50,501 nucleotides of DNA from Desulfurococcaceae archaeon (lineage in GTDB: Archaea; Thermoproteota; Thermoprotei_A; Sulfolobales; Ignisphaeraceae). Of this stretch, positions 23,874-50,501 are shown one piece after another. The number at the start of each line of letters is the position of its first letter. Positions within the stretch are counted from its first letter, which is position 1. The stretch covers positions 1-50,501 of the forward strand of contig JAJHRF010000009.1 of assembly GCA_020832925.1 (NCBI GenBank), written 5' to 3'. Both the position numbers and the translations under genes were made by a program. The notes beneath the pieces were generated by a model. It saw only the letters and a list, made by a program, of their open reading frames with translations. It was not told the origin of the DNA and did no database searches.

Positions 23874-24290
23874 CTAAGTACATCGAGGTAGAGATTCATT
23901 TAAAGCTATCCTCATAACCTCTAGCTCATCGCATGTCAACATAAAGAAGTACTCAAATACACCAGGTTTCTCAACAATAACTAAACCTTTCCTCAAAATC
24001 TTTAGCCTAAAGATGGGGTTTAACTGATCTAGAGGAACAATATCTACAGGTATACCAAGCTCTAACTCGAGCTCGGAATTAATTTTCAACAACTTATCTA
24101 AATCCATAGCATAGCTATAGATAGCTATATCAATATCCCTAAAAACATCCCCTTCAACGAAACTCCCAAAAACAATAGCTAGAGCTATATCGTATCTCAA
24201 TAAAAACTCCTTAATCTTCTTCAACAAAACCTCTTTCTCATTCTTACTAAACCTATAATACCTGAACCTCTCCTCAAATACTTCCGACAA
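23874..24290 (-). CDS. mntA: MntA-type nucleotidyltransferase antitoxin
   Basis: This nucleotidyltransferase carries the intact G-S ... R-D-I-D-I-A motif, with both metal-binding aspartates. In the HepT/MntA system the MNT protein silences the HEPN RNase by attaching AMP units to a tyrosine. Longer in-frame starts exist (24365, 24323) but lie deep inside the upstream hepT gene. TTG 24290 is chosen because it gives a 17-nt overlap with hepT, exactly like the HEPN/MNT pair at 460-476. That start is an inference; the domain is certain. Confidence 0.82.
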   Translation of the reverse strand: MSEVFEERFRYYRFSKNEKEVLLKKIKEFLLRYDIALAIVFGSFVEGDVFRDIDIAIYSYAMDLDKLLKINSELELELGIPVDIVPLDQLNPIFRLKILRKGLVIVEKPGVFEYFFMLTCDELEVMRIALNESLPRCT

Positions 24291-24693
24291 ACAGCGAAAC
24301 CCTCTCGATAAACTCTTCAACATATCTAAAATTCTTCTTAACAGCATCGTATATAATCTTATCATCTATAACCCAGTACCTATGAACAAGAAGATTCCTC
24401 AGCCTAATGATCTTCACCAGCTCTTCAGATACACTACGTTGTATAAAACTTCTATCAGCAAGAAGTTTAAGAGCATGTGTAGGCGTTTCAGGTTCTAAAC
24501 CATAGATATTTCTACATATATGTAGAGCTATAGCCGATACTGCTTCAGCGATAACAATGATGTTGTAACGTATAGCATATTTATCGGAGTCCGTAAGTTC
24601 TTCAAAAGATTTCTCTGAGCATCTAGATATAAATGAGATCGCGTTTCTTATCTCAGAGATAAGCTTCTTTATACGTTCTCTATCAATACCCAC
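24274..24693 (-). CDS. hepT: HepT-type HEPN toxin (DUF86)
   Basis: This 139-residue helical protein has the complete HepT catalytic motif R99-N-x3-H104-R-Y106 (R-x4-H-x-Y). The arginine and histidine cleave RNA, and the tyrosine is the residue AMPylated by MntA in characterised pairs. The GTG start has a strong GGGAGGT ribosome site upstream. The gene is first in a two-gene unit with mntA. Unlike the pair at 102-879, both partners here have all key residues, so this looks like an active toxin-antitoxin module. Confidence 0.88.
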   Translation of the reverse strand: MGIDRERIKKLISEIRNAISFISRCSEKSFEELTDSDKYAIRYNIIVIAEAVSAIALHICRNIYGLEPETPTHALKLLADRSFIQRSVSEELVKIIRLRNLLVHRYWVIDDKIIYDAVKKNFRYVEEFIERVSLFVGSI

Positions 24694-25461: not shown

Positions 25462-25578
25462 ACCTTATCACACAACTCTAATCTATATGTCGAAAAGAGA
25501 TTCTTTAAACTACTGTAATGAAGATCCTTAGCTTAACAACTTATTAACTGTATCAACACTATATACTAAGGGGATTTA

Positions 25579-25903
25579 ATGGTTTCACGACCTTCTGATT
25601 GGTTTAAACAAGCTCTTAAAGACCTTAATCATGCTGAGAAATCTCTTAAGTTAGGAGACTACAAATGAGGTTGTTCTGCAGCTCATCAAGCAGCTGAAAA
25701 AGTTGTTAAAGCTCTTTACCAGAAACTAGGTCTTGAGGTATGGAGACGTTCTGCCTCTAGACTTCTATAGCCTTCCTGAAGATTTTAAACCTCCGAAAAA
25801 GTTTATCGATATAGCTAAAGAATTAGATAGACATTACATGGCTTCGAGACACCCTAATATCTATCCCGAAGATGCTCTTATGGGCTACTATACCGAAAGC
25901 AAG
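25579..25903 (+). pseudogene. HEPN-domain gene broken by stop, frameshift and IS insertion
   Basis: From ATG 25579, with AAGGGGAT upstream, the frame encodes a HEPN protein. An in-frame TGA at 25666-25668 replaces the conserved Trp of the G-D-Y-x-W-x-C motif. The frame continues with A-H-Q-A-A-E-K-V-V-K-A-L and shifts by +1 near 25740 into a second frame that reads on to Y-Y-T-E-S-K at 25903. The coding sequence resumes at 27440 (A-R-R-V-I-E-Y-T-R-K-I-I-E-L), so the TnpB element 25904-27439 is inserted in it. Joining 25903 to 27440 restores a normal HEPN C-terminus. Confidence 0.8.
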
Positions 25904-25919
25904 GGTTTCCCCGAGGCGA

Positions 25920-27164
25920 TTACTCGTGAATAGCTGTAGATATCTGTGGATATATTTTTCTTGCCCCGGGGTTCCCCGCATTGGGTCGGATTCTCATCCC
26001 CTCATCTACAGAGCTATCAGAGCTCAACATAACCCCCAAGCCCCTCATCCGCTTCAACTTCTCTAAACCTCTCAACGCTATATTCCAAGAAGCTACAACA
26101 TCTCTAGATGTTACCACACCCCCAAGCTCAACGAACCTGTAGTTTATGAACTTAAACTTTTTGCCGTTAGGCGATTTTCTAGATGTTTTTGCTGGATCCA
26201 CATAAACTGTTTTAATTCCGTATACCATTGCCTTATACTCTGCAAATATTTGAACTCTTCTATAACACCACAAGGATTTTTCCCACGATAGTTTGTAACA
26301 ATGTTTGCTATTCTCTTTAAGTTTACCCAGATCCTCAAAAACTATTAATGCTCTATACTCTTTGGCTATCTCTACAAGCTTTTTAGATATTCTGTGGGCT
26401 GAATCTATCAATATGTTTCTAGCTTTGCTGAGCCATCTACCCCTAACCCTTCTAACCCACTTCAGAAACCTCCAAGATTTTGGATACCTCTTCTGAAGTT
26501 CTTCAGCAAGCTTCTTTAGGTGAAGAGCTCTCTTAAGACCTTTAAAAGGTATAACACCTATTGTGATTAGGTTGCCATTTAAATCAATTACTGTGTATGT
26601 AATATTATTGAAGTTTATGTCTACACCCATAACAGCCCTAAAATCAATGGGTTTGACATCTCTGTGAAATGTTATATAGACAAGTATTTTTCCATTCCTA
26701 TAGCTAATCAGTATCTCCCCTGGTCTCCAAGAGCTGTCGAGGTACTTGTCTAGGTAGTTGTACCACTTGAGCTTTAGCTCAACCCACTCATTGTTTAGAA
26801 CAGCTATTCTCAATGTTTTTGCATTAAAGTCTATTTTGTAGTCTAGTGAGTGTATCCTAGCAGTCAACTTCTTTAAAACAGGTTTAGAACCGTTATTCTT
26901 CTTAGTTGCTTCAACAACCTCCTTGGCACGTTTGTAAATCTCTGAAACGTGGTGAGCTCTAAAACCTAGTCTCCTCAACTCACTGTAGAACATTTTATGC
27001 AACTTCTCCTCAGATGGGATATTATCTAAACCCCAAATCCTATTAACTATACATTGAACTACGTCTCTGTACATCTTTATGAATTGAATTAAGAGAGCCT
27101 CACCTCTCTCGGGGGCAACAGCCTCAATCTTTGCGGTTGCTCTAACCCTCATAGAGAGGTTCAT
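25920..27164 (-). CDS. tnpB: TnpB RNA-guided nuclease with degenerate zinc ribbon
   Basis: This 414-residue, full-length TnpB has an N-terminal wedge/REC-like helical part (about 1-175) and a RuvC domain with all three acidic residues: D182 in G-V-D-I-N, E277 in F-E-D-L-G and D355 in S-R-D-V-V-A. The region between them that normally holds a CxxC...CxxC zinc ribbon (about 324-353) reads K-S-P-N-G-K-K ... V-E-L-G-G-V, with no cysteine left. The rest shows no stop or frameshift, so this is probably a natural variant. ATG 27164 or 27152 could be the start. The promoter is the palindrome at 27188-27217. Confidence 0.88.
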   Translation of the reverse strand: MNLSMRVRATAKIEAVAPERGEALLIQFIKMYRDVVQCIVNRIWGLDNIPSEEKLHKMFYSELRRLGFRAHHVSEIYKRAKEVVEATKKNNGSKPVLKKLTARIHSLDYKIDFNAKTLRIAVLNNEWVELKLKWYNYLDKYLDSSWRPGEILISYRNGKILVYITFHRDVKPIDFRAVMGVDINFNNITYTVIDLNGNLITIGVIPFKGLKRALHLKKLAEELQKRYPKSWRFLKWVRRVRGRWLSKARNILIDSAHRISKKLVEIAKEYRALIVFEDLGKLKENSKHCYKLSWEKSLWCYRRVQIFAEYKAMVYGIKTVYVDPAKTSRKSPNGKKFKFINYRFVELGGVVTSRDVVASWNIALRGLEKLKRMRGLGVMLSSDSSVDEGMRIRPNAGNPGARKIYPQISTAIHE

Positions 27165-27187
27165 AGGCTATCACTAATTTTGGATTT

Positions 27188-27217
27188 GGCTAGCAAAATT
27201 TATAAATTTTGCTAGCC
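27188..27217. promoter_or_regulatory. Perfect 30-bp palindrome, bidirectional promoter of tnpB and the 48-residue gene
   Basis: GGCTAGCAAAATTTA and its exact reverse complement meet at 27202/27203, with TTTATAAA at the centre as a TATA box readable in both directions. The centre lies 38 nt from the tnpB ATG and 36 nt from the ATG at 27238, so both genes sit at nearly equal distance. The arms could be bound by a dimeric regulator. All is read directly from the sequence except the regulatory role. Confidence 0.65.
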
Positions 27218-27237
27218 TTTACACTTTTGGTGGTTTC

Positions 27238-27384
27238 ATGAGCACTATCTACGTGTTTGAAGCATCAGTATCGAAGTACTCTGGAAACAGAATAGTTCTA
27301 TACCCACCAAAGGATTACCAGGAGAAGCTCAGGAAGTTCCATGGAAGGAAGGTCAAGGTATTAGTAATCATAGAAAGCGATTAG
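27238..27384 (+). CDS. 48-residue protein carried by the TnpB element (AbrB-like?)
   Basis: This short frame has a GGTGG site 4 nt before the ATG. It encodes a basic, beta-rich peptide with the order V-F-E-A-S-V-S, a central S-G-N-R-I-V-L-Y-P-P and K-V-K-V-L-V-I-I at the end. The layout suggests a small AbrB/SpoVT-like or similar beta-barrel DNA-binding fold. That is a guess from the pattern of alternating strands. It is divergent from tnpB across the palindrome, inside the element. It may regulate tnpB expression or help mobility. Confidence 0.68.
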   Translation: MSTIYVFEASVSKYSGNRIVLYPPKDYQEKLRKFHGRKVKVLVIIESD

Positions 27385-27488
27385 TTCAAGTATTTACAGT
27401 TATTCACAAGTGGTTACAGCTAATGCAAACCCCGCTACGGCTAGGAGAGTAATAGAGTATACGCGTAAGATCATCGAGCTCTATAGAG

Positions 27489-28550
27489 GTAAAGGTCTTC
27501 GCTTTACCTGGTGCTGGTATGACATTACCTCTAAACTTTATTCTCATGGAGTCTCACCCAGATTTAGCTACAACAATTTTTGCTATAGCAAGACCTTTCC
27601 ACGATATACTGAAGGATAGATATACTAAGTGACCTGGGAAAGAACTGTCGCCTAACATCCCTGCACAATTCGTTGGAGGTAAGTTTATGGATGTTGAAGA
27701 ATACGATGAGCTTGCTAAGAACCCTATAGATTTTATCTCTAAGAAAATCATTCCACGAATTTACGAAGCTCTTAAAGATCCTTCATCATCAGAGGCTTAC
27801 GGTGCTTTAATTAAGTTTGGTATAGAGATGGCGAAATTTAGTAGTGTATTTATGGATTTGATGAATAGGTTGAGAGATCTTGGCTATCCTACATATCCTT
27901 CAGGTTTTGGTTACGCACCACTAGACTTCATAGCTGACCACCTCAGACACATAAACTACACACTTATAGATTTATATAGATATTCTGATAAAGTTAGAAA
28001 AGCTTTAGATGCCTTGACGCCTCTAATCATGAAATGGAGCAGAATGACTATTTCAATACCTCCAAACGTTCTTGAGTTATTTGATATTAAGATACCGCTT
28101 GCATTTATACCTCTACACCTTAACGAAATGATTCCACCGAAATTCTTTAGAGAATTCTATTGGGAACCTTTGAAGAAAGTTATTATAGAGCTTGTTAATG
28201 GAGGTGCTATTCCATGGATTTTCTATGAAGGAGATTTTACACCGTTTCTAGAATACATACTTGAGCTACCGAAAGGAAAAACAATAGCATATTTTGAACG
28301 TACAGATCTTAGAAAAGCTAGGAAGATCTTAGGGGATCATGCAATAATCATGGGCGGCATATCACCAGCACACTATATCCATGGAATACCTGAGAAAGTA
28401 TTTAACGAAGTATGTAAACTATTAAACGATGTTAAAGAACCTGGGGGATTCATATTTGCCGGTAGTGGAGTAGCTGGTATACCTGATGAAACAAAACCAG
28501 AAAACCTAAAAATGGCTATCGAAGCAGTTAAGAAATGCGGTGTTTATTAA
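27489..28550 (+). pseudogene. URO-D/methyltransferase-like gene, 5' truncated with a nonsense codon
   Basis: The frame encodes a uroporphyrinogen-decarboxylase-fold protein of the corrinoid methyltransferase type (MtaA/CmuA-like). It begins abruptly in V-K-V-F-A-L-P-G-A-G and hits TGA at 27630-27632 where homologous motifs suggest Trp in K-W-P-G. It then runs open from 27633 to 28550, including a 287-residue frame from ATG 27687. About 100 N-terminal residues are missing; the HEPN fragment abuts it. The large C-terminal part is otherwise undamaged, which suggests recent decay. Translation from ATG 27687 is conceivable but would lack part of the barrel. Confidence 0.72.
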
Positions 28551-49116: not shown

Positions 49117-49675
49117 CCTCCTCTAACAACTTCTTAAATCCCTCAACCAACCTCTTCTTCTTATGACTCCTCATCCCGTAGAGCTTCTCAGCGAAGGACG
49201 TTACAATCTCTATCAAGTCCTCTACAAGCTCCTGGTAAGCATCCCTGGGCTCCTCCCCAAAGGCAACCTCTACCCTAACACCATACTGCTTGAAGAAGTA
49301 CTCTAGGTACTCAAAGCCGAATCTCGTCAATCTATCCCTATATGTTATTACGACCACATCTACTTGCCTATTAACAATATAGTTGAAGAGCTTTAGCAAA
49401 CCTCTCCTATCGGTCTTTAAGCCTCTTGCAACATCACTCAGCACATCAACTCTATATCCTTTAGAAGAGCAGTACTGTGTCAAGTACTGTATCTGCCTCT
49501 CCAAATCGCTCTTCTGATCTGATGAGTTTACACGTGCATATACGACTGCTTTAACCTCCTTGCTCATTGGTAATCCCTCAGCAATCCTCCTAACCTCACT
49601 CTCGGGAACCCTAAACTTGCCACCAGCCGTTCTTATGGCTTTGATCCTTCCCTCTCTAACTCGAAGCTTATAAAT
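49100..49675 (-). pseudogene. tnpA: IS607 TnpA serine recombinase, N-terminally truncated
   Basis: From ATG 49567 this is the catalytic domain (155 residues): Y-A-R-V-N-S-S-D-Q-K-S-D-L-E-R-Q, then R-D-R-L-T-R-F-G-F. The open frame extends upstream to 49675 and encodes the second half of the MerR-type DNA-binding domain (V-R-E-G-R-I-K-A-I-R-T-A-G-G). It lacks its first helix and any start codon. The catalytic Ser of the Y-A-R-V-S motif is replaced by Asn. The enzyme is thus probably inactive on two counts. Confidence 0.78.
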
Positions 49676-49704
49676 TTAACTCCTAGTCATCAACTATGAA
49701 ACAG

Positions 49705-49962
49705 CCCAATTTCTTCGATGATCTAGGGAATGTTATAGGTCATTACTACGAAAATTTGTTCAACTCTTCAAGAGAAGTTATTGAGTATGTTGTTAAGAAC
49801 TTCGATTACTTATACATATATACAAAGAAATTCCACGATATACTATACAATACGTCTATAGATAAATGGTTTGTAGATCTAATAGCATCTCAATTAACAA
49901 CACTCCAGAAATCAACTATATATACAAAAGACGGACTTTTCGGTGTTTGGGAAGGGTTCGGG
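49705..49962 (+). pseudogene. GH116 beta-glucosidase, middle part
   Basis: Continuation of the GH116 gene after the IS607-type element: P-N-F-F-D-D-L-G-N-V-I-G-H-Y-Y-E-N, then S-T-I-Y-T-K-D-G-L-F-G-V-W-E-G-F-G, which includes the W-E-G-F-G motif of the catalytic region. After G-F-G at about 49962 the sequence becomes unrelated and a TAA follows. A second TnpB element starts there on the minus strand. Confidence 0.78.
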
Positions 49963-50501
49963 TCTGGTAAACAGCTTTAATCATCTGTGGATTGCTCTAA
50001 CTACTTTCTTCACCCCCTCACATGTTGTTCCTCTGCTCCGTCTGGTTTCACCCTTCATCGCAGAGGCTCTTTGGGGTGACCCACGCACCCCTGCATACGC
50101 TTGCAAAGCTTTAAACCAAATGTTTATTGCTCCTATAGAATCTCTATCAGCTTTAAATCCGCACTTCTTGCAGATAGTCAATCTATGAATGTAAAGCAGC
50201 TTCTCACCACACCTTGGGCATGTACTTGAAGTGTTCCTGGGATCAACAACTATTATAGGTATCCCATACTCAAGAGCCTTAGAGATTATTGAATGCTGTA
50301 GTCTTCTATATGCAAACATTGTGAATTTCCAGGCAATAGCATCGCTCTTGTTGTTTACTCTTTCTTTAAGACCTTCGAGATTCTCTAAAGCTATTGCGCA
50401 ACCCTTTATCAAAGCTTTTAGAACTACTTGTTTAGCTAGTAACAACGATGCTCCTAGTTTTTCTGTGAAAAGCTTTAACTTTGCTAAGAATTTTCTCGTT
50501 G
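49963..50501 (-). mobile_element. Second TnpB-bearing element, cut by the window edge
   Basis: This begins where the GH116 frame is lost and carries the minus-strand tnpB at 49981 onward. Only its tnpB end is in the window. Together with the IS607 copy it means the same gene was hit twice. Confidence 0.6.
49981..50501 (-). CDS. tnpB: TnpB (C-terminal half), partial
   Basis: The frame is open to the right edge (at least 173 codons visible). It contains the RuvC glutamate in A-I-A-L-E-N-L, the D-P-R-N-T-S-S-T-C-P-R-C ... C-K-K-C zinc ribbon with all four cysteines, and the final aspartate in K-A-D-R-D-S-I-G-A. No stop or frameshift is seen. It may be intact beyond the window. The basic tail resembles other IS605-type TnpB proteins. 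Confidence 0.83.
   Translation of the reverse strand, partial: TRKFLAKLKLFTEKLGASLLLAKQVVLKALIKGCAIALENLEGLKERVNNKSDAIAWKFTMFAYRRLQHSIISKALEYGIPIIVVDPRNTSSTCPRCGEKLLYIHRLTICKKCGFKADRDSIGAINIWFKALQAYAGVRGSPQRASAMKGETRRSRGTTCEGVKKVVRAIHR

Follow-up and report, generated by a model that had tools for sequence, protein, structure and literature searches.

A tnpA-less TnpB element of a Desulfurococcaceae archaeon with a small divergent gene and a TATA-centred inverted repeat: a likely self-encoded brake on tnpB

Genes and features of the element

The stretch of DNA analyzed here, referred to below as the window (50,501 nucleotides, forward strand, of contig JAJHRF010000009.1 in the Desulfurococcaceae archaeon assembly GCA_020832925.1), contains a mobile element at 25903..27442 (no strand assigned) that carries two divergent genes. 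One is tnpB (25920..27164, minus strand), which encodes 414 residues without an internal stop; the other, at 27238..27384 on the plus strand, encodes a 48-residue protein that we propose to be an AbrB/MazE-like mini-repressor on account of its family, the selection upon it, its linkage to tnpB and an AF2 model. Between the two genes lies a perfect 30-bp palindrome, GGCTAGCAAAATTTATAAATTTTGCTAGCC (27188..27217, no strand; arms of 15 and 15 with no spacer), which we propose as an operator and which encloses what by its sequence, TTTATAAA (27199..27206, no strand), would be a symmetric TATA box common to both genes. The centre of the palindrome, at 27202/27203, is about 35 bp from the ATG of the small gene and 38 bp from that of tnpB, and when the 90-bp upstream region was shuffled 100 times with dinucleotides preserved, no such palindrome arose.

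Much of this arrangement had been recognized in a first-pass annotation of the DNA, which described the element at 25904-27439, the divergent 48-residue gene inside it, the palindrome with TTTATAAA at its centre and nearly equal distances to both genes, and an uninterrupted tnpB whose product has lost the zinc-ribbon cysteines and kept the three RuvC acids. All of these descriptions held up under the comparisons below. The limits agree with the ends defined by other copies (25903 to 27439-27442), the small open reading frame (ORF) is as described, and alignments together with the ORF bear out the features of TnpB.

Distribution and selection of the small gene

Additional copies of the small gene exist in the same genome, and a profile built from five of the copies there detected the family in 67 of the 214 genomes of the order. 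Among the named carriers, which were identified by way of the tnpB alignment, are Ignisphaera, Thermosphaera, Thermogladius, Staphylothermus and other Desulfurococcales (NCBI names). A divergent tnpB adjoins the small gene in 58 of 67 strong sites (those not cut by contig ends), and the reverse search, from the cysteine-less tnpB genes, found the small gene at 25 of 40 usable loci, with a start-to-start gap of 60-83 bp in nearly all of the 25. The pairwise ratios of nonsynonymous to synonymous substitution (dN/dS) between close copies of the small gene are mostly 0.06-0.25, and the pooled ratio of nonsynonymous to synonymous differences (pN/pS) is 0.14 (p = 2e-36), indicating purifying selection. 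No relatives of the small protein were found in viral contigs, plasmids or phage records.

Two variations on this theme bear on the function of the gene. At distantly related loci (L006, L074, L126-L132) the small gene lies upstream of, and on the same strand as, either a tnpB or tnpB-like gene or else an unassigned long frame. As a separate observation, the tnpB-like gene that follows the small gene on the same strand in L132 (2041-3274) and L126 (2040-3249) encodes about 365 residues, is RuvC-like and has no Pfam assignment above cut-off. Conversely, one group of cysteine-less tnpB genes (L202-L208, L211, L218, L228) is without the small gene; since its members nest among small-gene carriers in the tree, the gene was probably lost from this group.

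The TATA-centred inverted repeat

Perfect symmetry is limited to the window copy and a few others, and the general feature of the family is an inverted repeat (dyad) around the TATA box, the centre of which is about 35-39 bp upstream of the small start in most family promoters. The arms differ by lineage: the window has TAGCAAAA, L036 and L081 have GATAGAAAA, L126 has GACAGAAA, L131 and L132 have AAGTAAAG, and L006 has GAGCAAAAA; in promoters with arms of the types TGAGAC, TAGAGT and GTGMACA the centre is displaced by one base. To rule out mere consensus, the left and right arms of 21 dissimilar promoters were permuted across loci, and none of 5000 permutations reached the observed mean score of 5.36. 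Many homologous elements retain a TATA-centred dyad with covarying arms. As homologous TnpB elements also retain the small frame, which is under purifying selection, the unit is not accidental by the conditions that the first-pass annotation had set.

A dyad score of at least 6 was obtained for 30 of 69 family promoters and for 1 of 68 control TATA promoters, the single control being the window's own palindrome recurring in locus L156. The dyad is also present in the operon-type loci L006, L074, L128, L130, L131 and L132, where no divergent ATG-initiated ORF of 45 residues occurs within 300 bp, and it is therefore unlikely to be just a two-way promoter. In the group that lacks the small gene, tnpB still has a TATA box, 30-41 bp upstream, and the dyad scores are 2-3, with a single exception. 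Within the window no other copy of the palindrome half-site was found at 0-2 mismatches.

The small protein

With an alignment of 34 sequences, AF2 predicts a beta hairpin (residues 10-14 and 18-22) followed by a helix (25-32) at a mean confidence (pLDDT) of 90, and for a distant member of the family it predicts, at the same pLDDT of 90, a strand-helix-strand arrangement. Set beside the beta-beta-alpha-beta half barrel of the AbrB/MazE swapped-hairpin family, the models thus offer a hairpin and a helix in one case and two strands around a helix in the other. The AbrB, MazE and VapB swapped-hairpin proteins have in common with the small protein the motif GR.V..PK, a hairpin plus helix (predicted for the small protein) and a palindrome at their own promoter, but the small protein differs from them in having only 48 residues, in scoring below the Pfam cut-off, in being without a partner toxin and in its linkage to tnpB. 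From these models and the profile comparisons below, the small protein is likely to be AbrB-like, the indications from its fold being only suggestive. A sequence search of the PDB returned nothing meaningful. DUF2080, a putative transposon-encoded protein, resembles the small protein in being small, archaeal and transposon-linked; this identity was rejected, as none of 211 genomes of the order matches and every member of the small-protein family falls short of the cut-off, including a distant one with an E of 0.047.

A transcriptional brake encoded by the element

Collectively, the conservation of the small gene and its linkage to tnpB, the purifying selection upon it, the covarying arms of the dyad and the near-absence of the dyad from the lineage without the gene suggest that a tnpA-less TnpB transposon encodes its own transcriptional brake, an AbrB/MazE-like protein that would repress both itself and tnpB via the dyad overlapping the TATA box. 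We consider this likely. The dyad of operon-type elements that have no divergent gene, the predicted hairpin and helix, the weak MazE_antitoxin matches and the profile match to AbrB proteins of the genus point the same way. The 48-residue protein would be a minimal DNA-binding protein of this kind, a dimer of which might bind the intergenic inverted repeat that surrounds the TATA box and, when bound, exclude TBP and TFB. The small gene and tnpB would then be repressed together in a negative autoregulation, and in the distant elements, with small gene and operator placed before tnpB in one operon, the outcome would be equal. The purpose might be to limit both the level of the nuclease and the copy number. 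The first-pass annotation had supposed that the small protein controls TnpB or else is an anti-nuclease or a mobility factor; linkage, selection and dyad make control the best reading of the three, with regulation as such being what we infer, and the two alternatives are less well supported.

Several observations weigh against the proposal of a self-encoded brake, among them the weakness of the fold assignment. The Pfam family matched by most members of the small family is MazE_antitoxin, yet only 3 of 34 match it, with a best E of 0.0076, under the cut-off. In hhalign comparisons with AbrB proteins of the genus the central motif is aligned with an E of 2.4e-4, at a probability of only 43%. 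For these reasons, and because the profile of the AbrB/MazE swapped-hairpin family gave no match above cut-off, we call the protein only AbrB/MazE-like. Foldseek returned no significant match for such short models, its most probable (non-significant) ones being dimeric small-barrel proteins. In many promoters of the family the dyad is only partial, the exception among the small-gene-free tnpB genes has a score of 6, and these small-gene-free copies are mutually related, so that the contrast they provide amounts to few independent events.

Other explanations can be weighed against the same evidence. The palindrome might be merely a symmetric bidirectional core promoter (BRE-TATA-BRE, BRE being the TFB recognition element), with the small protein acting elsewhere, as would suit a TATA box at the centre and two starts at fitting distances; this is unlikely, since the arms extend 15 bp from the centre, past TATA and BRE, the dyad persists in operon-type relatives without a divergent gene, the arm sequences covary between lineages, and other TATA promoters do not have the dyad. 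The AbrB/MazE-like profile and the constant linkage to a nuclease gene might also be expected of an antitoxin-like direct inhibitor of TnpB that autoregulates via the dyad in the manner of the MazE and VapB antitoxins. We give this explanation little chance, since a protein of 48 residues has no neutralising tail past its DNA-binding core and a TnpB lineage without the small gene persists with frames intact in most copies. A role of the small protein as a mobility factor in place of TnpA, which the numerous copies of an element without tnpA might bring to mind, appears very improbable: 48 residues are too few for a recombinase, the palindrome half-site is absent from the ends of the element, which bear a different inverted repeat, and mini-elements that lack the small gene have likewise spread, in trans at least.

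A functional parallel to the proposed brake exists outside transposons. Controller (C) proteins of restriction-modification systems are small autoregulators that restrain a nuclease gene via a promoter dyad. The role proposed for the small protein is similar in all three respects (small autoregulator, nuclease gene, promoter dyad), but the C proteins have a helix-turn-helix, belong to restriction-modification systems and are unrelated to the small protein. A literature search, which covered neither subscription papers nor preprints, found no paper linking TnpB to such a small gene, nothing combining TnpB, AbrB and archaea, and nothing relevant on AbrB with insertion sequences, on zinc-finger loss or on this gene neighbourhood. 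Relative to the literature searched, the combination proposed here, in which a tnpB-only element has a regulator of its own, would thus be new. The question addressed is how transposons stop RNA-guided nucleases from harming their hosts. If the proposal is true, a directly testable answer, and a compact thermostable switch besides, would lie in a small dedicated repressor whose operator is readable and which is conserved, in either of two gene arrangements, in many TnpB elements of archaea.

Loss of the zinc ribbon from TnpB

The RuvC triad of the window TnpB is intact in alignments (D182, E277 and D355), and not one cysteine is left in the zinc-ribbon stretch. The protein passes the Pfam cut-off for Cas12f1-like_TNB (PF07282) at 3.8e-8 and scores 81.5 bits (7e-23) with NCBIfam guided_TnpB, below the cut-off of 100 bits. 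In all eleven intact members of its clade the four cysteines are gone and the D/E/D residues kept. The cysteine-less TnpBs form a single clade (support 100/99) whose sister TnpBs have the zinc-ribbon cysteines, and dN/dS is 0.12-0.30 within the clade and 0.14-0.22 between the window tnpB and close members. Decay of TnpB as the reason for the loss was rejected in view of the intact frames and these ratios, and a TldR (TnpB-derived RNA-guided repressor) was excluded by the intact triad. The loss of the zinc ribbon is a derived loss inside TnpB, and we do not take it to exclude membership among the TnpB nucleases; such a conserved clade represents a natural minimisation of the nuclease. The small gene is also found beside TnpBs with an intact zinc ribbon, and its presence and the loss of the cysteines are therefore to be treated separately.

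Guide-RNA end and mini-elements

At the 3' end of tnpB lies a predicted structured RNA (25974..26044, minus strand) in which compensatory pairs occur and 95.5% of cells are paired; its covariation is 0.325, versus 0.167 for shuffles (0 of 500 reaching it) and at most 0.12 when slid. It is a probable guide-RNA (omega RNA) scaffold. An end hairpin, CCCCGGGGC...GCCTCGGGG (25910..25970, minus strand; helix 4, with 93% of cells paired), lies by the element end. No Rfam family was matched anywhere in the element. Seven mini-elements of 279-352 bp (L016 1478-1829, L074 374-715, L024 1451-1797, L018 1040-1389, L003 2211-2548, L023 1304-1649 and L017 1380-1658), from which both genes are gone, retain the 155-bp guide-RNA end and the opposite 53-bp end of the TnpB element, and they could provide guide RNAs in trans.

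From the proposed brake and these derivatives a wider scenario can be drawn, which we offer tentatively as possible rather than probable. Many TnpB elements of the order (in Desulfurococcales hosts such as Ignisphaera) might carry a co-evolving repressor-operator module that acts as a transposon immunity circuit with lineage-specific operators, whereby a resident repressor would silence the TnpB of incoming kin and spare other lineages, and mini-elements could feed guides in trans to the zinc-ribbon-less TnpB.

Ends, mobility and setting of the element

The limits of the element are fixed by four copies of 82-84% identity in the same genus (L056, L058, L059, L061), which stop at 25902/25903 and at 27439-27444 in unrelated flanks. 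An inverted repeat of 18 bp, (C/T)TACAG(C/T)TATTCAC(G/A)AGT, occupies a subterminal position at both ends, at 25922..25939 (minus strand) on the tnpB side and at 27394..27411 (plus strand) on the small-gene side. No conserved flanking target was seen around the copies, and in both respects the element differs from IS605 elements mobilised by a Y1 transposase. A tnpA, the Y1 transposase gene of a complete IS200/IS605 element, was not found in the element, nor was a serine transposase gene. The one Y1 gene in the genome is on another contig and the serine recombinases, too, lie outside the element; a comparison of these Y1 and serine-recombinase loci turned up no resident transposase with the same ends. 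The element resembles the tnpB-only (IS1341-group) members of IS200/IS605 in having tnpB without tnpA, a structured RNA at the 3' end of tnpB and mini-derivatives; it differs from them in its second, divergent regulator-like gene and operator-like dyad, in a TnpB without a zinc ribbon, and in the subterminal inverted repeat at ends around which no conserved target flank was seen.

The element is inserted in an apparent HEPN-domain ORF (25578-25930 plus 27410-27620), the left part of which scores E 0.017, below cut-off, and which had already been disrupted upstream by a TGA and a frameshift. Nearby on the minus strand (23874-24693), a nucleotidyltransferase (Polbeta, 2.9e-15) lies beside a HepT-like ribonuclease (2.4e-23) in a typical HEPN-MNT toxin-antitoxin arrangement. 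Farther along the window, at 49157-50427 (minus strand), a serine recombinase adjoins a piece of tnpB in an IS607-like arrangement.
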